Source: Nitrososphaeraceae archaeon
GTDB lineage: Archaea; Thermoproteota; Nitrososphaeria; Nitrososphaerales; Nitrososphaeraceae
Assembly (NCBI GenBank): GCA_021325075.1
Contig: JAJPHX010000032.1
Span: 1 to 37,998, forward strand
Reading direction: 5' to 3'
DNA: 37,998 nt
Below, piece after piece: positions 1,009 through 37,998 of this stretch; position 1 is the stretch's first letter; every line of letters begins with the position of its first letter. A program made the translations under genes and the position numbers. The notes beneath the pieces were generated by a model. The model ran no database searches. It saw nothing but the letters and a program-made list of their open reading frames with translations, and was not told the DNA's origin.

Positions 1009-1977
1009 TTACTCTATGCTCGGGATTGCCAGCTTGATGTCAGGCGCTGAATCAGGCTCGTCCCAGTCAAGCGTGTCTGGGATGATCTCGCCCAGCGGGT
1101 CGTACCTGTCAAACCTTGTCTTTTGAGGAGATGAAGCAACTAGGTGGACGCGGACGCCGTCAGTTGCAGCCATTGAAGACATCGCCACTTCAGTCGTCCC
1201 ATCTTCTTTAAATATCCCCTGTACGCAGCCTACCAGCTTGTTCAAGTCGCCAACCGGAATTCGATCGCCGCCCATGACATACACCATTGCCCTCTTTACA
1301 GTGCTTGTATCTGACACGTCGTTATACAGCATAGCCACAGAGTCGCGAAGCGACAATTCTGAGCTCGTGCTCGCTTTGCTTGTGCACAGTATGTTCATCT
1401 CTGGCCTCACGCCGCCGGTGGAAATCGAGGAAATGACTTCGACCATGGCGCTATTTGTTATTCTGTAGCACTCTTCCTTTGAGAGATCTGGATTATTGTC
1501 AAGGAACGCGTCATTGTCAAGAACGATTGTCGAGTCTGATGTTTCGCGTACGCGCCTCAGCGCGGTGCCAGAATTAAAGATTCTATCTTTTTCAAACTTG
1601 AATGGCATGATGGCAAGCGAGATCACAGAACCTGACTGCCTTGCCATCTTGCATACGAGAGGAGCCATAGCAGTGCCAGCTCTTCCTGCAAGGTTTGAGA
1701 CAACTATAATTGTTGAAAATCCCTCCATTAATGAGGCAATTTTATCTTGATGTATCTGTACAAAAGAGCGCAGCTTGTGGCTTGATGGGTTGACCCATTC
1801 TCCAGAGTCAACAAAGACCGAGTTGCACTTTTCATTCTGGATCAAGTCCTTCCTGTCATTGCTTACCAAGAGACACTTGCAATCCAGTGCCGCGCTTGCC
1901 GCGGTCGCGATTTTGGTTCCAGCGCCGCCGATGCCCACTAGCAGCATAGGATTCTTTATCAAAAGATCGTTTACCAT
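1009..1977 (-). CDS. Divergent FtsZ/tubulin-superfamily GTPase-like protein
   Basis: 322 aa; N-terminal MLLVGIGGAGTKIATAA resembles the FtsZ T1 loop. VVSNLAGRAGTAMAP sits where the GGGTGTG tubulin signature is expected. No NxDFAD T7 loop. Confidence 0.6.
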   Translation of the reverse strand: MVNDLLIKNPMLLVGIGGAGTKIATAASAALDCKCLLVSNDRKDLIQNEKCNSVFVDSGEWVNPSSHKLRSFVQIHQDKIASLMEGFSTIIVVSNLAGRAGTAMAPLVCKMARQSGSVISLAIMPFKFEKDRIFNSGTALRRVRETSDSTIVLDNDAFLDNNPDLSKEECYRITNSAMVEVISSISTGGVRPEMNILCTSKASTSSELSLRDSVAMLYNDVSDTSTVKRAMVYVMGGDRIPVGDLNKLVGCVQGIFKEDGTTEVAMSSMAATDGVRVHLVASSPQKTRFDRYDPLGEIIPDTLDWDEPDSAPDIKLAIPSIE

Positions 1978-10535: not shown

Positions 10536-10664
10536 ATGTCGGATTATACTGGATATGCTTTCAAGTGCAGGCTTTGTGGCATGGAATTTACGACGCAGGA
10601 GGAAGCAGACAGCCATTATGAAGACGTCCACAGAAAGGACCCTGGAAGAATGCACAGACAATAA
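10536..10664 (+). CDS. Single C2H2 zinc-finger microprotein (42 aa)
   Basis: Hand translation MSDYTGYAFKCRLCGMEFTTQEEADSHYEDVHRKDPGRMHRQ*. C-x2-C-x12-H-x4-H. Confidence 0.8.
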   Translation: MSDYTGYAFKCRLCGMEFTTQEEADSHYEDVHRKDPGRMHRQ

Positions 10665-10725: not shown

Positions 10726-11826
10726 TTAAAAGACACCCAAGAAGCGCTTCTTTTCTACCACCGGCACTGGTTCGGGCTTTGATTCATGGCCGAATTTGCT
10801 CTCGACGCCAGTCAGCACGACCATCACGCGCGCCTTGCCCTTAATTTCGTGGTCAACTTTTGCGCCCCACACGATCCTTACTTCCTTTGTCAAGCTCCTT
10901 GTTACAAGCTCACCGGCTCTTGTGACTTCTTCCAGAGTGATGTCGTCACCACCGGTTACATGAATAAGAGCACCGTGAGCCATAGACATGTCCTTGATGT
11001 CGAGCAGTTGCGAGTCAAGCGCCGTCCTGGTTGCCTGCTCTATTCTGTCCATGCCTGTCGCATCGCCAACTCCTATTGCCGCCAACCCTCTTCCTTCCAT
11101 TATGGCTGTCAGGTCTGCAAAGTCAATGTTGATCAAACTGGCTGTGGTTATAGTTTCTATGGTTCCTCTGATGAACTGACCGACCAGTTCATTTGCTACG
11201 CCAAGTGCTTGTTGGAGCGGCAGGTTGCCTGCAACTCTTGTCAGTCTGTTGTTGTCGATTGCAACAACTGTGTCACATATTCTCTGGAGGTTTTGGAGTG
11301 CTTCCTTTGCCATACTATACCGATAGCGCTCAACTGCAAATGGAAGTGTTATAACAGCCACGACCAGAGCGCCAGTAGCTCGTTTGAGCTCCTCTGATAA
11401 TACCTGTATCGCGCCTGTACCTGTTCCGCCTCCGAGGCCTGCGCACAGGAAGATAATGTTTGAGCCCTGTACTTCTCTAGTAACTTCAGCAATGCTTTCA
11501 CGCGTTGCCTGCATACCTTTCTCTGGATAGCCACCGCAGCCCCTGCCCTGGGTCAGTTTAGGACCTATCAATATACGCCTGTCAGCCTTGCTGATTCCAA
11601 GGTGCGCGGCATCCGTGTTGACAGCGATTAGCTTGCCGCCAGTAATGCCCTTTTTCTTTATCCAAGATATGATGTTGCTGCCTGCGCCACCAGCACCTAT
11701 TACCGATACCTGTGGCTTGGCCATTTCCATTGCTGCGCGGAGTGTTTCTTCTTCCATCACCGAAGCCGGTGTCCTCCTGTTGTTCATGTTGTCAGAATTA
11801 TAATTATTTTTGTCATGAGATGACAT
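10726..11826 (-). CDS. ftsZ: Cell division protein FtsZ (canonical GTPase motifs)
   Basis: 366 aa; GAGGAGSNII, CAGLGGGTGTGA (tubulin signature), NIDFADL (T7 loop). Confidence 0.94.
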   Translation of the reverse strand: MSSHDKNNYNSDNMNNRRTPASVMEEETLRAAMEMAKPQVSVIGAGGAGSNIISWIKKKGITGGKLIAVNTDAAHLGISKADRRILIGPKLTQGRGCGGYPEKGMQATRESIAEVTREVQGSNIIFLCAGLGGGTGTGAIQVLSEELKRATGALVVAVITLPFAVERYRYSMAKEALQNLQRICDTVVAIDNNRLTRVAGNLPLQQALGVANELVGQFIRGTIETITTASLINIDFADLTAIMEGRGLAAIGVGDATGMDRIEQATRTALDSQLLDIKDMSMAHGALIHVTGGDDITLEEVTRAGELVTRSLTKEVRIVWGAKVDHEIKGKARVMVVLTGVESKFGHESKPEPVPVVEKKRFLGVF

Positions 11827-12641: not shown

Positions 12642-14621
12642 TTGTTGAAGAGTTCGAGAAGCTTTACACTGGCAAAGGACGCCTTTCCGCCCAGTGGCGA
12701 CCAGCCTGAAGCAATTAAGCAGCTAGTCAATGGTGTGCAAAAAACAGGGCGCCAGACCCTTCTTGGCGTGACTGGAAGCGGCAAGACGTATACCATTGCA
12801 AATGTCATCGCAAGGGCAAACAAGAACACGCTTGTGATTTCCCATAACAAGACCCTTGCCGCTCAATTGTACGCTGAGTTCAAAGAGTTCTTCCCAGAAA
12901 ACAACGTTGGATACTTTGTCAGCTTTTACGACTATTACCAGCCTGAAAGCTACATCCCGCAGACAGACACGTACATCGAAAAGGACACTGAAGTTAATGA
13001 AAAAATAGAAAGGATGCGGCTTGAAGCCACCGCCATGCTCATGTCCGGCGAACCCACGATAATCGTGTCAACCGTATCATGCATCTATTCCCTTGGTTCG
13101 CCCAGAGAGTGGGAAGACAGCGCCATCACTGTGACAAAAGACATGACAATCGATAGGAAGGTGCTCATCCACAATTTCATCGAAGCCCGCTATGAGCGAA
13201 ATGACATGTCGCTTGTGCCGGGCAACTTTCGCGTCAAGGGCGACACGATTGACATCATTCCCGGCTATGCTGATGACATCATCAGGATTTCGATGTTTGG
13301 CGACGAGATCGAGCACATCAGCATACATGATCACGTTACGATGAAAAAGCTGCGCGATGTTGACGCAGTTAAGATATTTCCTGCAAAGCACTACATCACC
13401 GACAATGACTCGCGCAACCGTGCGCTGGAGTCAATAAAACGCGAACTGCAAAACTGGCTGCCGACCTTGCCGTCAGAGCTTGAAAGGCAGAGGCTTGCGC
13501 AGCGAACGAAATATGACCTTGAAATGATAGAAGAGCTTGGCTACTGCTCCGGCATTGAAAATTATTCACGCCACCTTGACGGCAGGGCGCCGGGCCAGCC
13601 GGCCTACTGCCTGCTTGACTTTTTTGGCGACGACTTTTTGCTGGTGATTGACGAGTCGCATGTCACACTTCCGCAGCTGCACGGCATGTACAACGGCGAT
13701 CATACGCGCAAAAAGATGCTTGTAGACTATGGCTTCCGCCTGCCTAGCGCCTATGACAACCGCCCGCTAAAGTTTGAAGAATTTGAGAAATACCTAAAGA
13801 ACGTAATCTTTGTGTCAGCAACTCCGGGCCAGTACGAACTAAAGTCTAGCTGGCAGGTTGCAGAGCAGCTGGTCAGGCCGACAGGGCTGGTAGATCCAAA
13901 AGTCGAGATCCGGCCTACAAAAGATCAGATGGAGGACTTGATTAAAGAGATCAAGTCAAGGACCAAAGACAACCAGCGGACCCTTGTTACGACCCTGACA
14001 AAGAGAATGGCAGAAGATCTGGCGGAATTTCTTGCCAAGAATGAAATCCGTGTCCGATACCTGCACTCAGAGATCGAGGGCCTAGAGCGCACAGAACTGA
14101 TACGGCAACTGCGTCTGGGCGAGTTTGACGCGCTTGTAGGCATCAACCTCCTGAGAGAAGGCCTCGACATACCAGAAGTTTCACTTGTTGCAATTTTAGA
14201 CGCAGATAAGGAAGGCTTTTTACGAAATGCCACAAGCCTCATCCAGACATTTGGTAGGGCTGCGCGCAACCTTGACGGCACCGTGATACTGTATTCTGAC
14301 CGTGTTACTGACTCGATGAAGCAGGCTATTGAAGAAACAGAGCGCAGGCGCAAGAAGCAGCTGGAATACAACAAAAGGCATGGGATAACCCCCAAGACAA
14401 TAATCAAGCCGGTGCCTGAAAGCGCTAAAGAGATTGCAGACTTGGCAGTGGAAACAAAGTCGATGACAAGGCAGGATTTGGTGAAACTAGCAGTCGAGAC
14501 AGAGGCGACGATGAAGAGGTTTGCAGAAGAGTTGGAATTTGAAAAGGCAATAATGTTTAGAGAAAAGCTAAACAAGTTAAGAAAGGCGCTTGGCGAATCT
14601 GCATATTCAGAGGTGTCATAA
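12642..14621 (+). CDS. uvrB: UvrABC system protein B
   Basis: 659 aa; [56 protein letters not shown] and a C-terminal UVR domain. Apparent TTG start, with TATA-like catatatg about 30 nt upstream. Confidence 0.97.
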
Positions 14622-17483
14622 ATGCACGACAAGATAATCATCAGGGGCGCGAGGCAGCACAACCTAAAGAACATCAATGTCGAGATCCCAAAGAACAGGC
14701 TCGTTGTCATTACCGGGCTGTCAGGCTCTGGCAAGTCTACGCTTGCCTTTGACACGATATACGCTGAAGGCCAGAGGCGCTACGTTGAGTCGCTGTCTGC
14801 CTATGCCAGGCAGTTTCTGGAATTGATGGACAAGCCCGACGTCGACTCGATAGATGGGCTGTCACCAGCAATATCGATACAGCAGAAAACCACGAGCAAG
14901 AACCCGCGCTCGACTGTCGGAACAGTCACCGAGATTTACGATTATCTCAGATTATTGTTTGCAAGGATTGGCACTCCCCACTGCCCAAAGTGCGGCAGGA
15001 AAATTGCTAGTCAGTCAGCCGACTCGATAACAGAGTCCGTGCTCAAGACTGCAGAAGGCAAGAATGTCATGATACTTGGTCCAGCAATTCAGGCTAAAAA
15101 GGGGACTTATGAAAAGCTGTTTGACGAGCTAAGGCATGAAGGCTTTTCACGGATAAGGCTAGACGGTGAGATAACAAAGCTGGATGAAGAGGAAAAGTCC
15201 CAGTACCCAAGGCTGGACAAGCAGAAAAAGCACACGATTGAAGTCATAGTCGACAGGCTCAGACCGGCGATAGAAGAAAAGAGCCGGCTTTTTGACTCGA
15301 TACAATCTGCATTGAAGGTTGGCAATGGAGTTGTTGTCGTTTCAGTTGAAGGCAAGGATACGATGTATTCGCAGAGAAATGCCTGCCCGCACTGCGGCAT
15401 TTCACTTGGTGACTTGGAGCCCCGGACGTTTTCATTCAACTCTCCCTTTGGAGCGTGCAAGGAGTGCAACGGCCTTGGAATCAAGATAGAGTTCGATCCA
15501 GACCTGATAATACCAGACAGGGCAAAGAGCATCCTAGATGGCGCAATAAAGCCGTGGACCGGACACTTTGCCACCTTCCGCTCGGCGATGCTCAAAGATG
15601 TTGGCAAAAAGTTTGGCTTTGACCTGTCGACGCCGGTCGCAAAGATGACTGAAAGGCAGGTAAAGGTAATACTGTATGGCACTGACGAGAGTATTCACTA
15701 CAGATACGAATCGCGTTACTCTGACAGCCGGTGGGAATACAGGGGGACGTTTGAAGGGGTCATCCCAAACCTTGAGCGCATATACAAAGAAACAGAGTCG
15801 GAGTCAAAGCGCGAAGACCTGATGCAGTTCATGCGCGAGCGCTTTTGCGAGCGCTGCAACGGCAGGCGGCTGCGCGAAGAAGCACTTGCAGTCAAGATAG
15901 GAAACAATTCGATAATAGACGTGTGCGACCTGTCAATCGACGAGTGTTACAGGTTCTTCCAAGCTCTAGAGCTGTCAGAGACAGAACGCTACATCGCAAG
16001 GACTATACTGAAGGAAATCATTTCAAGGCTTGAATTTTTGCGAAATGTCGGCCTGAACTACCTTACACTCAACAGGATGACTGCCACGCTGTCAGGAGGC
16101 GAGTCGCAGAGGATCAGGCTTGCAACCCAGATAGGGTCGAACCTTACAGGCGTGCTTTATGTCCTTGACGAACCTACAATAGGCTTGCACCAGCGCGATA
16201 ACGCAAGGCTGATAGACACATTAAAAAAGCTGCGCGATCTGGATAACACGCTTGTAGTTGTAGAGCACGACGAGGAAGTGATACGAAGCTCTGACTGGAT
16301 AATAGACATCGGCCCGGGTGCCGGTATACATGGAGGTCAGATTGTTGCAAGCGGCGTGCTCGAAGAGATCATGAAGAATTCCAGTTCCATTACAGGAGCG
16401 TTCCTTAGAGGCGATCAAATAGTTTCACACCAGCATGAAAGGCGCAAGGCAATAAAATGGCTGGGCGTGCATGGAGCTAGGGAGAACAACCTAAAGTCAA
16501 TAGATGTGCGCTTTCCGCTTGGATGTATGACAGTTGTGACCGGAGTATCCGGCTCCGGCAAATCGACGCTTGTAAACGACATCCTGTTCAGGGCCCTTGC
16601 AGGTCACTTTTATGATGCAAAGGACAGGCCGGGCAAGCACGACAAGCTGTCTGGGCTAGAGCATATCGACAAGGTGATAGGCATCGACCAGTCGCCGATC
16701 GGCAGGACGCCACGCTCTAATGCCGCTACCTATGTCAATGCCTTTACTCCTATTCGCGAACTGTTTGCCAAGACGCCCCAAGCAAGAGAAATGGGGTACA
16801 AGGCAGGCAGGTTTTCGTTCAATGTCTCGGAAGGAAGGTGTGAGGCATGTGAAGGAGGAGGCGTCAAAAAGATAGAAATGCAGTTCCTGCCTGATGTCTA
16901 TGTCACGTGCGACGAATGCAAGGGTAGACGCTACAACTCTGAAACGCTTGCGATAAAGTACAAGGGTAAGAGTATTTCGGACGTACTTGACATGACGATT
17001 GAAGAAGCGCTAGAATTCTTCTCCAACATTTCATCCATTACAAAAAAACTTCAGACACTAAACGACGTAGGTCTCGGATACCTCCGACTAGGTCAACCAG
17101 CGACAACCCTGTCAGGAGGAGAAGCCCAGAGGATCAAGCTGGCGGCAGAGCTGTCAAGACGGGACACTGGCAAGACAGTCTACATACTGGACGAGCCTAC
17201 CACAGGTCTTCACTTTGCAGATGTCAGCAAGTTGCTTGGAGTCCTAAAGAGGTTGGTTGACCTTGGCAACACTATCATTATAATCGAGCATAATCTTGAC
17301 GTCATTGCTTCAGCAGACTGGATAGTCGACTTGGGGCCTGAAGGAGGAGCAGCTGGCGGTAGAATAGTGGCGGCAGGAACGCCTGAAGAGATAGGCGAAA
17401 ATAAAGACAGCTATACAGGCAAATACCTGAAGCCAAAGCTGGCAATGGATCAAAAGATATTGCAGCAGAGGCGCAAATTATGA
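14622..17483 (+). CDS. uvrA: UvrABC system protein A (excinuclease ATPase)
   Basis: 953 aa; two Walker A motifs ([27 protein letters not shown]), two LSGGE signatures, zinc-finger CxxC pairs. Directly abuts the uvrB stop. Confidence 0.97.
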
Positions 17484-19093
17484 CTGCAACAATTCTGAAA
17501 GAAAAGCGGATGCCTGACGAGCCTGGTGTCTACCTTATGAAAGACAGTGACGGCAAGATAATCTACATCGGCAAGGCAAAGAACCTGAAAAAGCGAGTCA
17601 CTTCGTATTTCACTAGGCATGATCCTGACACCGGGTGGAAGACAGACAGGCTGGTCAGCAGGATAGCAGACATTGAATTTGTAGTCACTGACAACGAAAT
17701 TGAGGCATTCTTGCTTGAATCAAATCTCATCAAGAGGTACCGACCAGTCTTTAACATCGAGCTGAAGGATCAGCAGCGCTATACTTATCTCAAGATAACT
17801 GACGAGCTCTTCCCGCGCCTTTTAGTTGCCCGGCGCAACAGAGGTGGCGAGTTCCTCGGTCCCAAGGGCAAGGTCTACGGACCTTTTGTGCGCGGAAGCT
17901 CAAAATTCCTGACAGTGGGCCTCTTGAGAAAGCTGTTCAAGATCAGGGTGTGCAACAAGCTTCCAAAGGCACCCTGCCTTCAGTATTTTATAAAGAACTG
18001 CGACGCGCCATGCATCAACAACGTGACGCGTGGACAGTACATGATTGGAGTCGCTTCCTTGCAGGACATACTTGAAGGCAAGAACAGCATCGACAGGTTT
18101 GCCGATGAAATGCAGGTAGAGATGAAGCGGGCATCTGACCTTGGCGACTACGAGCGGGCAAAAGAGATCCGCGACACCCTGCACAGGCTGAACAATCTGC
18201 GCGTCAGGCAAAAGATGGAAAAGGCAGTCAACAAAAATCCCGACGAAGAATACATTGGCATAATGAAAGATGAGACAAAGGGAATGGCCCATGTTATGGC
18301 GCTTCGCCGTACACGCGGAGTCATCAGCGACAGGAAAAAGTTTGAATTCGAACTTGTAGGCGATAACTCGCTGTTGTCGTTTCTCTTGCAGTACTATTCT
18401 TCCGTTCCAGTAGTCCCAAGGTTCGTATATGTCAACGAAGACCCTGAAGATAGACAGGTGCTTGAGGCATCGCTTGGAAAGATTGCAGATCACAAGGTGA
18501 GCATATTTAATGTCGAGCGAATGCTTGCAAAGGAAAAGCGCCAGCTGATGGATCTTATAATCCGGAACCTGTCGATGTATATTGAAAGGGGCTATGACCC
18601 GGCGGTAGTTGAATTGAAAAACGCTCTTTCGCTCACGACGATGCCCGAAGTCATCGACTGCTTTGACGTTTCAAACCTTGGCACAACCATTGCAGTAGGA
18701 GCGTGCACCAGATTTGTCAGCAACAAGCCAAACAAGTCAGGCTATAGGAAGTTCAGGATTAAGACAATAGCAGGACAAAATGACTTTGCGATGATAGGCG
18801 AGCTTGTTCACAGACGCTATTCTTCAAATGACGCGGAAAAATTGCCAGACCTGATAGTGATAGACGGCGGGCGCGGTCAGCTTGCGGCAGCTGTGGCGTC
18901 GCTCCGAAATTTGGGACTATCCGATATCCCTTGCATTGGCCTTGCAAAAGAAAATGAGGAAATCTACAAGCATGGTCATGTAGAGCCGATTGTGCTGTCA
19001 AAGAGCAACGCAGGACTAAAGATGCTCCAGCACATTAGAGATGAAGCGCACAGGTTCGGACTTGCGTACAACGTCAACCTGAGAAAGCTCTGA
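17480..19093 (+). CDS. uvrC: UvrABC system protein C, lacking the C-terminal (HhH)2 domain
   Basis: 537 aa; GIY-YIG domain GVYLMKDSDGKIIYIGKAKNLKKRV, UVR domain, RNase H-like VIDGGRGQL and DEAHRFGLAY near the end. ATGA overlap with uvrA. Confidence 0.95.
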   Translation: MTATILKEKRMPDEPGVYLMKDSDGKIIYIGKAKNLKKRVTSYFTRHDPDTGWKTDRLVSRIADIEFVVTDNEIEAFLLESNLIKRYRPVFNIELKDQQRYTYLKITDELFPRLLVARRNRGGEFLGPKGKVYGPFVRGSSKFLTVGLLRKLFKIRVCNKLPKAPCLQYFIKNCDAPCINNVTRGQYMIGVASLQDILEGKNSIDRFADEMQVEMKRASDLGDYERAKEIRDTLHRLNNLRVRQKMEKAVNKNPDEEYIGIMKDETKGMAHVMALRRTRGVISDRKKFEFELVGDNSLLSFLLQYYSSVPVVPRFVYVNEDPEDRQVLEASLGKIADHKVSIFNVERMLAKEKRQLMDLIIRNLSMYIERGYDPAVVELKNALSLTTMPEVIDCFDVSNLGTTIAVGACTRFVSNKPNKSGYRKFRIKTIAGQNDFAMIGELVHRRYSSNDAEKLPDLIVIDGGRGQLAAAVASLRNLGLSDIPCIGLAKENEEIYKHGHVEPIVLSKSNAGLKMLQHIRDEAHRFGLAYNVNLRKL

Positions 19094-34666: not shown

Positions 34667-34825
34667 TCAGGTCGTAGCTTCCGCGTCAGGGTGCAAGTCT
34701 CTTCTGTGCACTTCCATCTCGTCGACATTTCTGAATTTCTTGCCGCAAATGTCGCAAGTCCTTTTGACGCGCCGGCCATAAAGAATGTCGGCAAGCCTCA
34801 TTAGGTAAATGCCAAATCCCCACAT
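34667..34825 (-). CDS. Single C2H2 zinc-finger microprotein (52 aa)
   Basis: Hand translation MWGFGIYLMRLADILYGRRVKRTCDICGKKFRNVDEMEVHRRDLHPDAEATT*. C-x2-C-x12-H-x4-H. Confidence 0.8.
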   Translation of the reverse strand: MWGFGIYLMRLADILYGRRVKRTCDICGKKFRNVDEMEVHRRDLHPDAEATT

Positions 34826-34908
34826 CGATTATTAATATACGTCATTTCTTTAAAACTTAACTATACTTTTTTCAAATCGTTATATTCACTGCGATGCCAT
34901 AATTATCA

Positions 34909-35367
34909 TTGGCTAGGTTCGAGAGGTTGCTGGTATGCGTGGACGGCTCTGAATCTTCCATGAAGGCAGCTGGCTATGCGGTGGAGATAGCAAAAGAGTA
35001 TGGTGCGCAGGTGATCGCGCTCAACGTCATTGTTTCGCAGCTTGGGTATGCGTACTCGTCAGGTGCTTTTGGTCTTGTCGGGCCCAGCACCATAAACGAC
35101 CTGCTTGAAAAGTCAAAGCAGGAGGCACAAAAGTGGTTTGACGAGATAGGCAAGAATGCCACGGCAAACGGTGTCCAGCTCAAGACCGAGGTTGTCGCAA
35201 GCCCGACTTCAGTAGCACCAGCAATAGTGGATTACGCGGAGAAAAACAAGGTCGATCTGGTGGTGGTTGGCACAAGGGGGCGGTCAGGCTTTACCAAACT
35301 GCTGCTTGGAAGTGTCGCGTCAGGCGTAGTAACTTATGCAAGCTGCCCAGTCATGGTCGTAAAATAA
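34909..35367 (+). CDS. Universal stress protein UspA family
   Basis: 152 aa; LLVCVDGSESSMKAAGYAVEIAKEYGAQVIALNV...VVVGTRGRSGFTKLLLGSVASGVVTYASCPVMVVK. TTG start. Confidence 0.95.
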   Translation: MARFERLLVCVDGSESSMKAAGYAVEIAKEYGAQVIALNVIVSQLGYAYSSGAFGLVGPSTINDLLEKSKQEAQKWFDEIGKNATANGVQLKTEVVASPTSVAPAIVDYAEKNKVDLVVVGTRGRSGFTKLLLGSVASGVVTYASCPVMVVK

Positions 35368-35403
35368 CCTAATCGATAAATATCTTGGAAGGCAGGTTTT
35401 ACT

Positions 35404-35859
35404 ATGGCAGAGACAACTGCTCATCAAAAGAAGGGCTGGATTGATCTTATCAATGAATCTGTCCATACAAGCGATGATGTTGACATTGGAGACATTGACG
35501 CAGTCAGCCGCGACTTTGTGGTTATCAAGCGCGGCTTTGTAAATGTGCATTATTACTACATCCCGATGAACAAGGTTGAAGGATGGGACGGACATGTGTT
35601 GTGGTTAAAGATAACAGAAGATGAGGTAAAGAGCAAGTATGAGCGAGATGCAGTGCCTGACCCATCGCGGTACTTTGTCAAGGATTATCCTGGCTATACA
35701 GCCGCATACCCTGACCTTACGATGATAATTCCCCGGTACACCGCGCCTATCTACGCCTCGGTCTCTCCGGAACAGCCGCTGATCTTCAGGTGCGACTTGT
35801 GTAATGCGCCGTTTCGGACAGAAGACGAGCTAAGCGCCCATGTTGCAGCAAACCACTGA
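35404..35859 (+). CDS. DUF2171/PRC-barrel-like domain fused to a C-terminal C2H2 zinc finger
   Basis: 151 aa; IGDIDAVSRDFVVIKRGFVNVHYYYIPMNKVEGWDGHVLWLKITEDEV then CDLCNAPFRTEDELSAHVAANH. Confidence 0.75.
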   Translation: MAETTAHQKKGWIDLINESVHTSDDVDIGDIDAVSRDFVVIKRGFVNVHYYYIPMNKVEGWDGHVLWLKITEDEVKSKYERDAVPDPSRYFVKDYPGYTAAYPDLTMIIPRYTAPIYASVSPEQPLIFRCDLCNAPFRTEDELSAHVAANH

Positions 35860-35861
35860 AC

Positions 35862-36011
35862 TTACATTTTCTTTTTGCTGCTTTTCCCCTTTCTACCCAT
35901 CGTGGCATTGCATACTGCGTATGCATTTCTGGCGCTGCCCTTTCTTTTTACTTTTGTGACGCACCTATCAAACTTTCTTGTGCTTAACCCCTTTTTGATT
36001 CCCCTTGGCAT
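35862..36011 (-). CDS. Small highly basic protein (49 aa)
   Basis: Hand translation MPRGIKKGLSTRKFDRCVTKVKRKGSARNAYAVCNATMGRKGKSSKKKM*. Below the ORF-track cut-off. Confidence 0.65.
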   Translation of the reverse strand: MPRGIKKGLSTRKFDRCVTKVKRKGSARNAYAVCNATMGRKGKSSKKKM

Positions 36012-36161
36012 ACCCTATTTTGAGAAAGATGATTAATCAAGGCTGCAAACTGTCATTTTATCATGCGCCGACCCTTTATTCGGTCATGCTTCCGCTGATC
36101 AGTTTGGAGGGGATTCATAGAAGAACTGTTTTTATTGAACTGATTATCACACACTGTCATA

Positions 36162-36407
36162 TTGGAAACCAACATATTCAAATGCAATGACTGTGGCCGC
36201 GAGTTTGAACTCGATTACCAATTAGAACTGCATACAAAATTTATGCACAGCTCTAGTATCTACAAATGCGAAAAATGTGGACAAGAATTTGCATCAAAGG
36301 AACAAATCGACATGCATCTGTCAAACGTTATACATGATAGCAAAGACAAGCCCACGGATGACTATAGAGGAAACAGACCAGTGGAGCAATCTCGGAAACT
36401 GTACTGA
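36162..36407 (+). CDS. Tandem two-finger C2H2 zinc-finger protein (81 aa)
   Basis: CNDCGREFELDYQLELHTKFMH and CEKCGQEFASKEQIDMHLSNVIH. TTG start. Confidence 0.82.
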   Translation: METNIFKCNDCGREFELDYQLELHTKFMHSSSIYKCEKCGQEFASKEQIDMHLSNVIHDSKDKPTDDYRGNRPVEQSRKLY

Positions 36408-36496
36408 TATCAAAAGTCTTTTCTAATCATTATTTTATGAACCCTGAACATTTTTTCATGAATGCCCTTTAATAACTTGAATGCCATTTGCTCTAT

Positions 36497-37012
36497 TCAA
36501 AGCTGTCTTGACACATTATTTTCTCTCTTTCTCGAAAGTTCACTAAATATTACAACCGCTCCCGTCAGAACAGAAGTTAAGATTATGAAGGATTTAGAGT
36601 ATTGGTCTGACATTTCTGCGTGTTCAAGGTAGTCATGGTCCGCTTGTTCTGAATGAGAGTAATTTTCAAATAACTTTTCATAATATCCGGGTGCCAATAC
36701 AAAGGTATTATTTTGCTCGTTGAAAACGACATAATCCTTGGCTTCTTGCGAAACCTCGCTAACTAGAAAATCTCCAATTCGTGTTTCATTTCTATGATAT
36801 TCAATTGTTGCCTGAATAAGCAGTTCTTCATCCTGGCGCGCCTGCTCATCTGCAAGACGTTCATAGCGAAGCGTTGTTGTTAATTCTGCATTGGTTAGTG
36901 CATAATATTTCTGAGCTTCAGCTGCGTAATAACCAGCGATTGAAGCCGCGATAGACGCAACGGCTGCCAGTGCTATTATGATCGTGTTTCTACGCGATGG
37001 AGAAGGAACCAC
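36497..37012 (-). CDS. Two-TM membrane protein, DUF4337-like
   Basis: 171 aa; TM near each terminus (IIIALAAVASIAASIAGYYA; SFIILTSVLTGAVVIFSEL) around a charged central region. Confidence 0.6.
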   Translation of the reverse strand: MVPSPSRRNTIIIALAAVASIAASIAGYYAAEAQKYYALTNAELTTTLRYERLADEQARQDEELLIQATIEYHRNETRIGDFLVSEVSQEAKDYVVFNEQNNTFVLAPGYYEKLFENYSHSEQADHDYLEHAEMSDQYSKSFIILTSVLTGAVVIFSELSRKRENNVSRQL

Positions 37013-37104
37013 TAGTTTATCTTTTCAACGATTAGAACGCGTAGTATAAAGAGATATGTTGTATTGAAACATACTTATCTCATGAAGACTATTTCAGTTT
37101 GTTA

Positions 37105-37239
37105 ATGCCATCAGCAACGACAAGCAGTAATGAACTAAAGTGCGATGAATGCGGAATTGTATTCACAACAATGCAAGACAAGGAAGAGCACATGAAGCTG
37201 GAGCATGAAGAAAGCAGACGCCCTACCGGCGTGAGGTAG
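37105..37239 (+). CDS. Single C2H2 zinc-finger microprotein (44 aa)
   Basis: Hand translation MPSATTSSNELKCDECGIVFTTMQDKEEHMKLEHEESRRPTGVR*. Confidence 0.8.
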   Translation: MPSATTSSNELKCDECGIVFTTMQDKEEHMKLEHEESRRPTGVR

Positions 37240-37241
37240 TG

Positions 37242-37379
37242 CTATTCGCTTGCTTCTCTGATCCTTTCTTTTTGCTCGCTTGTCTCGTAGCCCCGCTCAG
37301 GATCAAATAACGCGTTTGCTGCTGGGCTTGATCCGCCCTTGGTTTCCGGTTTGTTTTTCATCTCTTTATCGTCAATCAT
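37242..37379 (-). CDS. Small hydrophilic protein (45 aa)
   Basis: Hand translation MIDDKEMKNKPETKGGSSPAANALFDPERGYETSEQKERIREASE*. Confidence 0.5.
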   Translation of the reverse strand: MIDDKEMKNKPETKGGSSPAANALFDPERGYETSEQKERIREASE

Positions 37380-37457
37380 GACATCCCTTGTTCAACATCG
37401 TAATTAAGCTCGCAACGATTGCGAAACTGTCTTATATTTTGTGGTTAAGTAGTAGTC

Positions 37458-37583
37458 ATGTCGAATCAAGCGCCCAAAAGACCGCATTACCATTGTGAAA
37501 AATGCGATAAGGACTTTCCAAGCATGCTTGATCTAGAGGAGCACCGCAAGATTGACCATGCTGCTGCAGCATCCATGACTTGA
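37458..37583 (+). CDS. Single C2H2 zinc-finger microprotein (41 aa)
   Basis: Hand translation MSNQAPKRPHYHCEKCDKDFPSMLDLEEHRKIDHAAAASMT*. Confidence 0.8.
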   Translation: MSNQAPKRPHYHCEKCDKDFPSMLDLEEHRKIDHAAAASMT

Positions 37584-37621
37584 TCCGCTGCAGTTATGTG
37601 GCATGTCTGCCATTATCTCTT

Positions 37622-37849
37622 ATGGAAGAAAAAGCAAGTAGCGAACTTGTCATCCATATTGATGGGAAAAATATTCAAGTACCAGAGAAGCTCCTGACAG
37701 GCGACCAGCTTTTGGAAATTGCCGGCCTTCCGCCAAAGGATTATGACGTCTATCTTGTCTACGAAGGCGGCAAAAAACATCTTGTTGACAGCAGGGAAGC
37801 GATAGAGGTCCAGCGCGGCATGAATTTCGCAGTAGCACACAAGCCTTGA
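37622..37849 (+). CDS. Ubiquitin-like single-domain protein (resembles the Multiubiquitin family, PF14452)
   Basis: 75 aa from ATG at 37622: MEEKASSELVIHIDGKNIQVPEKLLTGDQLLEIAGLPPKDYDVYLVYEGGKKHLVDSREAIEVQRGMNFAVAHKP. The order (IxIDGKxxxVxxxxLTGxQLLxIAG, DYDVYLVYEGG, V.RGMNFAVA) is typical of that family. Confidence 0.72.
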   Translation: MEEKASSELVIHIDGKNIQVPEKLLTGDQLLEIAGLPPKDYDVYLVYEGGKKHLVDSREAIEVQRGMNFAVAHKP

Positions 37850-37881
37850 AGAGTTATCATTCATTTTGTGCAAGACATTGC

Positions 37882-37998
37882 ATGGTACAACCGAGTGAAT
37901 ACAACTATACGTGCGACGAATGCGGGGCGGCGTTTACGGCCATGGAAGAGCTGACTGAGCATTGCAGGCATGACCACGAGCCAGTGCAAAGTTCTTAA
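37882..37998 (+). CDS. Single C2H2 zinc-finger microprotein (38 aa)
   Basis: Hand translation MVQPSEYNYTCDECGAAFTAMEELTEHCRHDHEPVQSS*, ending at the last base of the window. Confidence 0.8.
   Translation: MVQPSEYNYTCDECGAAFTAMEELTEHCRHDHEPVQSS

Follow-up and report, generated by a model that had tools for sequence, protein, structure and literature searches.

A cluster of tiny zinc-finger genes at a contig end

The DNA analysed here (the window) is the whole of contig JAJPHX010000032.1, 37,998 nucleotides from the metagenome-assembled genome (MAG) of a Nitrososphaeraceae archaeon (GCA_021325075.1), and the elements in question are very small genes encoding C2H2 zinc fingers. The original prediction, made from the letters alone, had placed six such genes with seven fingers in the last 3.3 kb (34667-37998) and a related one at 10536-10664, and all of them lie at those coordinates. 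A strict six-frame search of the window returned exactly eight C2H2 fingers, whereas 200 order-2 Markov sequences of matching composition contained 0.025 on average and never more than 1. The genes, with the ubiquitin-like gene that lies among them and the evidence on which each assignment rests, are as follows:

34667..34825, minus strand: zinc-finger microprotein, 52 aa, with an N-terminal hydrophobic/amphipathic helix MWGFGIYLMRLADILYGRR, then one C2H2 finger (ratio of non-synonymous to synonymous differences (pN/pS), full-length relatives, synteny)
35404..35859, plus strand: PRC-barrel/DUF2171-like domain with a C-terminal C2H2 finger, 151 aa (sub-threshold Pfam match, AlphaFold/Foldseek, paralogues)
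36162..36407, plus strand: two-finger protein, 81 aa, TTG start, with a conserved C-terminal tail DYRGNRPVEQSRKLY (Pfam zf-C2H2, relatives)
37105..37239, plus strand: single-finger microprotein, 44 aa, conserved C-end P-[TAS]-G-V (orthologues)
37458..37583, plus strand: single-finger microprotein, 41 aa (syntenic orthologue)
37622..37849, plus strand: ubiquitin-like (Multi_ubiq, PF14452) small protein, 75 aa (Pfam above cut-off)
37882..37998, plus strand: single-finger microprotein, 38 aa, its stop codon being the contig's last codon (orthologues)
10536..10664, plus strand: related single-finger microprotein, 42 aa (strict motif)

Six of the seven finger proteins thus carry a single finger and one carries two. 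The predicted spacing proved exact: C-x2-C-x12-H-x4-H with Phe holds in seven of the eight fingers, the exception being the second one in 36162-36407, with H-x5-H. All eight have the Phe and both pairs of ligands, and they were counted as conforming to the classical pattern C-x2-4-C-x3-[FY]-x5-L-x2-H-x3-5-H; the fourth ligand is always His, and helix position 4 is Leu, Ile or Met in six fingers and Ala or Lys in the other two. The last gene ends on the final base of the contig. In the syntenic genome G056 (see below), one more finger gene (935800) follows beyond the position matching the window end, and the cluster may go on past the contig end.

Purifying selection, gene order and promoters

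Three independent lines of evidence establish that these tiny zinc-finger genes are real, conserved genes. The main comparison was made with G056, a closed genome from the same genus, 2,833,868 bp long, of which 85% (2.4 Mb) was examined, so that its counts are lower bounds.

— Purifying selection. For five of the seven genes in the window, G056 holds a reciprocal best match, with pN/pS of 0.13-0.44 (Fisher p 9e-4 to 2e-26), and the pooled value over 21 reciprocal orthologue pairs genome-wide is 0.30. For individual genes, the ratio is 0.29 at 34667; 0.13 at 37105-37239 (75% identity to G056 940654-940788, p 2e-15), a type also found in genomes G199 and G161; 0.44 at 37458-37583 (syntenic orthologue 937764-937898, p 9e-4); and 0.34 at 37882-37998 (orthologues at G056 936515-936634 and in G199, p 6e-6). 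The reciprocal match of 35404 is a non-syntenic paralogue, and no reciprocal orthologue of 10536-10664 was found in the examined part of G056.

— Gene order. Four of the five matched genes share their order over about 15 kb. The block at 952-936 kb of G056 keeps, in order and relative orientation, HTH-DUF4443, 34667, Usp, 37105, 37242-37379(-), 37458, the ubiquitin-like gene and 37882, with other genes inserted; 34667 is flanked by HTH-DUF4443 and Usp in both genomes.

— Promoters. Upstream of 44 small G056 finger genes with ATG starts, A+T content peaks at 0.80-0.84 at positions -28 to -25, and 19 TATA-like elements start in the -30 to -26 bin against 1.6 expected. This spacing fits leaderless archaeal transcripts beginning at the called ATG. 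Most of the genes have no same-strand neighbour close upstream, such a gene lying within 100 bp in only 12 of 55 cases.

Chance open reading frames (ORFs) are ruled out by the Markov and reversed-pattern controls and by pN/pS. Recent local tandem duplication is likewise ruled out, because the sequence closest to each of 37105, 37458 and 37882 is its orthologue in another genome (54-75% identity) and not a neighbour (about 35-40%). Conservation, and synteny or paralogues elsewhere, on which the original prediction had staked itself, are present in the form of purifying selection, partial synteny and a set of paralogues.

Two further observations concern the same block. The 45-aa ORF at 37242-37379 (-), which has no Pfam family, is 69% conserved in G056 at the same place and in the same relative orientation. 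Directly after the Usp gene, G056 950835-950918 holds a 28-codon match to 35404-35859, perhaps the remnant of a PRC-barrel/finger gene; full-length relatives lie elsewhere in G056.

A genome-wide family expanded in one lineage

The window cluster forms a dense patch within a family that is spread over the whole genome. Matches to the strict DNA pattern CxxCx3[FY]x8Hx4H number 26 in the 1.58 Mb MAG, and the reversed pattern has none. Pattern counts, taken in 300 genomes from the order and in 85 from the rest of the phylum, fall into three levels:

— Nitrososphaeraceae, the family of the window, has a median of 18 strict matches (range 6-65) in the 39 genomes at least 90% complete.

— In a sample of f9, another family of the order (probably Nitrosopumilaceae), the median is 7.

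— Elsewhere in the phylum (85 genomes) the median is 1.

In G056, 83 fingers were detected in the examined 2.4 Mb, against 2 in a Markov genome. Their spacing is H-x4-H in 54 cases, x5 in 28 and x3 in 6 (the patterns overlap slightly); the near-invariant spacing that the original prediction held to be remarkable is normal for the class, with x5 making up about a third of fingers genome-wide. The 76 finger genes kept, 43 of which encode at most 60 aa, are clustered (15 neighbour pairs within 2 kb versus 4.6 expected), and the densest stretch (seven genes in 16 kb, P 0.001) fits the block syntenic to the window. The diversified paralogue family proposed from eight fingers is supported, and it is far larger than those eight could show. 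It is mostly old, its classical C2H2 proteins have one finger and rarely two, and among the ammonia-oxidizing archaeal families, in which it has expanded, the Nitrososphaeraceae show the strongest growth.

This strong expansion in soil-type ammonia-oxidizing archaea was previously uncounted, which the profile scores help to explain. Only the two-finger protein 36162-36407 exceeds the Pfam gathering cut-off for zf-C2H2 (33.4 versus 25.2 bits). Since one 23-residue domain rarely reaches the cut-off, nearly all single fingers are sub-threshold in Pfam; those in the window score 17-24 bits, and 37882 is not listed for PF00096. Searches of NCBIfam and PHROGs profiles gave only sub-threshold zinc matches. 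The fold itself is recovered in a model: AlphaFold gives 34667 a beta-beta-alpha finger (pLDDT about 76-83), and Foldseek comparison with single C2H2 fingers aligns it to 2elx (TMt 0.72), with an E value above 0.05 owing to its small size.

Two groups of relatives stand apart. A second finger subfamily in G056 (L078-L197), of about 20 copies, has H-x5-H spacing, usually a Gly-His end and a Phe-rich (F-x-F) helix start. A free-standing microprotein, CPYCxSxFxxxxxLSKHIDRIH (L005:771-905; G056 195456-195611), recurs across families of the order, and its finger and tail are the same as in the CBS fusions of G056 (see below). A viral origin of the 34667 type was not borne out by its lone IMG/VR match (L205), which is a chance one inside a large phage-like ORF in an unrelated context; viruses may still be involved.

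Conserved parts outside the finger

The original prediction described most of these proteins as little but the finger; this fails for 34667 (N-terminal helix), 36162 (C-terminal tail) and 35404 (PRC-barrel). Full-length relatives of 34667 occur in many genomes of its family, and the N-terminus MWG[FI]xIYLMRLADYLxGR is better kept than the finger, being retained also in relatives whose finger no longer has its Phe; AlphaFold predicts a helix there at low confidence, and the amphipathicity of this part is moderate. The two-finger protein has a 60% orthologue in genome G209, and a one-finger relative in G213 shares the tail ending SRKLY. The N-terminal part of 35404-35859 matches DUF2171 below the Pfam cut-off (E 0.0025); its model (pLDDT 77-89) matches the PRC-barrel structures 3htr and 8onw at Foldseek probability 1.0 (E about 0.01-0.03). 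As modelled, the protein is a PRC-barrel with a finger at its C-terminal end, and it belongs to a type with several paralogues per genome. Pfam identifies CBS and DUF2795 domains as fusion partners of other G056 fingers; further fusions to MEDS-, RHH- and WYL-like domains were read by eye, without a Pfam match.

Elsewhere in the window, 35862-36011 (-) is a 49-aa basic ORF (MPRGIKKGLSTRKFDRCVTKVKRKGSARNAYAVC...) that resembles a real small protein and has no Pfam match. By eye, UvrB, UvrA and UvrC can be read in consecutive genes at 12642-19093 (+), which would make a repair set of bacterial type in an archaeon, and two ORFs, 1009-1977 (-) and 10726-11826 (-), look FtsZ/tubulin-like.

Protein docking or DNA reading?

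In the helices of 49 H-x4-H fingers from G056, Ser or Thr takes up position -1 in 67% of cases, and Glu or Asp takes up position 3 in 65%. Such a Ser/Thr-x-x-Glu/Asp arrangement is a helix N-capping box, and it occupies two positions that read bases in Zif268-type fingers. In the same set, the four base-contact positions (-1, 2, 3, 6) are 37% acidic and 13% basic, and the helices of all window members have a net charge of -1 to -3. Between paralogues, likeness is 0.17 at base-contact positions versus 0.10 at other surface positions, the reverse of what diversified DNA specificity would lead one to expect. Orthologues keep the whole surface (0.72 at base-contact positions, 0.66 at the others), which suggests one partner per paralogue and hence protein docking. 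The conserved parts outside the finger, and the fusions to CBS, DUF2795 and PRC-barrel domains, also count in favour of docking. On these sequence-level grounds we prefer, as the original prediction did, adaptors or co-regulators to strong DNA readers, and we give protein docking rather than base-specific reading an even chance of being correct.

Most members are probably transcribed singly, each from its own leaderless promoter, and are kept by purifying selection, every paralogue with its own orthologue. Under the docking model, each finger would be a small zinc-stabilised docking module whose whole surface binds one particular partner protein. Short conserved extensions would set the place of action (in 34667 the MWG helix, in 36162 the SRKLY tail, in 37105 the P-x-G-V end), as would fused PRC-barrel, CBS or DUF2795 domains, and the set may work as adaptors or co-regulators in signalling and transcription. 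What the analysis establishes for the finger proteins is that they exist, how many there are, their conservation, promoter spacing and fusions, and their fold as judged from motif, profile and model; we infer translation, zinc binding, partner binding and a regulatory role.

Several points weigh against docking, and most of them speak for DNA-binding transcription regulators, acting on promoter DNA through one finger plus arms or as hetero-oligomers of one-finger proteins. By profile (E down to 4e-35) as by fold, the best PDB matches of these classical fingers are DNA-binding tandem fingers, although such proteins dominate the PDB, which tempers their weight. AFV1p06, a one-finger archaeal viral protein, binds DNA in vitro and prefers certain sequences (PMC3541406). 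Basic paralogues also exist (net charge up to +8, e.g. the ...HSY-ending group) and could bind nucleic acid, DNA binding being possible chiefly there; helix positions are, moreover, kept in orthologues. The base-contact analysis itself covers 49 fingers, and its 19 orthologous pairs come from a single pair of genomes. Finally, the neighbourhoods revealed no partner: 73 neighbours of G056 finger genes showed no significant enrichment over 101 control genes (CBS in 3 of 73 versus at most 1 of 101, p 0.2), and some CBS and DUF2795 'neighbours' are finger fusions themselves. Base reading is nevertheless at odds with the acidic helices of all window members, with base-contact positions that are not the diversified ones, and with the want of tandem arrays, the sole two-finger window protein being linked by SSSIYK instead of a TGEKP-type linker. 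We regard DNA regulators as a real but minority possibility.

The ubiquitin-like protein (PF14452 E 1.5e-9, 38.4 versus a cut-off of 24.5 bits) raises another option, namely that the 37458 and 37882 fingers act with it as eukaryotic ubiquitin-binding fingers do. Its gene lies on the same strand, 38 bp after the one and 32 bp before the other, and follows the same finger gene in G056; there, however, the 37882 orthologue is about 1 kb further on, past a nitroreductase-like ORF. The zf_UBZ matches are weak, all falling below the cut-off (PF18439, 20.9 and 15.7 versus 25.6 bits), and neither the window nor the PF14452 loci showed a recognisable E1/E2-type gene. As PF14452 occurs in only 7 of 70 genomes of the family, and the five besides the MAG and G056 have no adjacent finger gene in the locus examined, the link is a lead only, and quite improbable. 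Metal handling is important to ammonia-oxidizing archaea, and many copies of a small zinc site might buffer or sense zinc or another metal; a metal sink would, however, have no need of the paralogue-specific non-ligand surface (0.66-0.72 between orthologues versus 0.10-0.17 between paralogues), nor do fusions to signalling-type domains suit it, and we consider this role most improbable. An association with RNA, the ribosome or RNA polymerase has precedents in small archaeal zinc proteins, which include ribosomal and polymerase subunits (PMC6562870), and acidic fingers can dock on basic partners. Yet tens of diversified copies per genome, differing strongly between families of one order, are unlike core machinery, and no ribosomal or RpoP-type family matched above cut-off, which makes such a role unlikely.

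Extended further, protein docking would give a lineage-specific layer of some 20-90 one-finger adaptor microproteins with one partner each, at least one branch of it working with a ubiquitin-like protein; this we offer as a speculation that will probably prove wrong in part or whole. Classical C2H2 fingers count as a speciality of eukaryotes, but one archaeal family carries tens per genome, mostly below the usual size and score cut-offs. The family makes the role of a lone classical finger that is the whole protein testable, and it points to many still unexamined candidate regulators in nitrifiers of global importance. If the adaptor layer exists, a eukaryote-type finger would have been expanded in archaea for binding proteins instead of reading DNA.

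Comparison with known systems

The expansion is undescribed in the open literature searched, most subscription papers lying outside that scope, and some of these proteins may well bear names given by automatic annotation in public genomes. The nearest described relatives are the AFV1p06 family of archaeal viral and euryarchaeal proteins, likewise short and archaeal, with one classical-type finger and a CxxC-x12-H core (PMC3541406). AFV1p06, however, has Glu as fourth ligand and a third-strand extension, whereas the window fingers have His; its known crenarchaeal members are viral, whereas the present family is chromosomal with tens of members per genome; and a 2013 analysis reported no homologue in Thaumarchaeota (PMC3541406). 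According to the same work, archaeal fingers occur one or two at a time in short proteins; the anatomy found here agrees with this, the numbers do not. The haloarchaeal two-C(P)XCG zinc micro-proteins, of which Haloferax volcanii has 43-49, with deletion-mutant phenotypes (PMC6562870, PMC11241148), are also archaeal, shorter than 70 aa and numerous; they are four-Cys zinc ribbons of an unrelated fold class, whereas each window finger has one CxxC and two His.

Eukaryotic Krueppel-type tandem fingers (PF00096) share the motif, hydrophobic core positions, modelled beta-beta-alpha fold and profile matches, but the archaeal proteins differ in having one finger, H-x4-H or x5 and not mostly x3, a non-TGEKP linker and acidic, undiversified base-contact positions. 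The barrel of 35404-35859 resembles DUF2171/PF09939, CdpB and archaeal PRC1/PRC2 (8onw, 8qzo); unlike these, the protein has a C-terminal C2H2 finger, and paralogues with and without it exist. Small archaeal zinc proteins are, in sum, a known kind.

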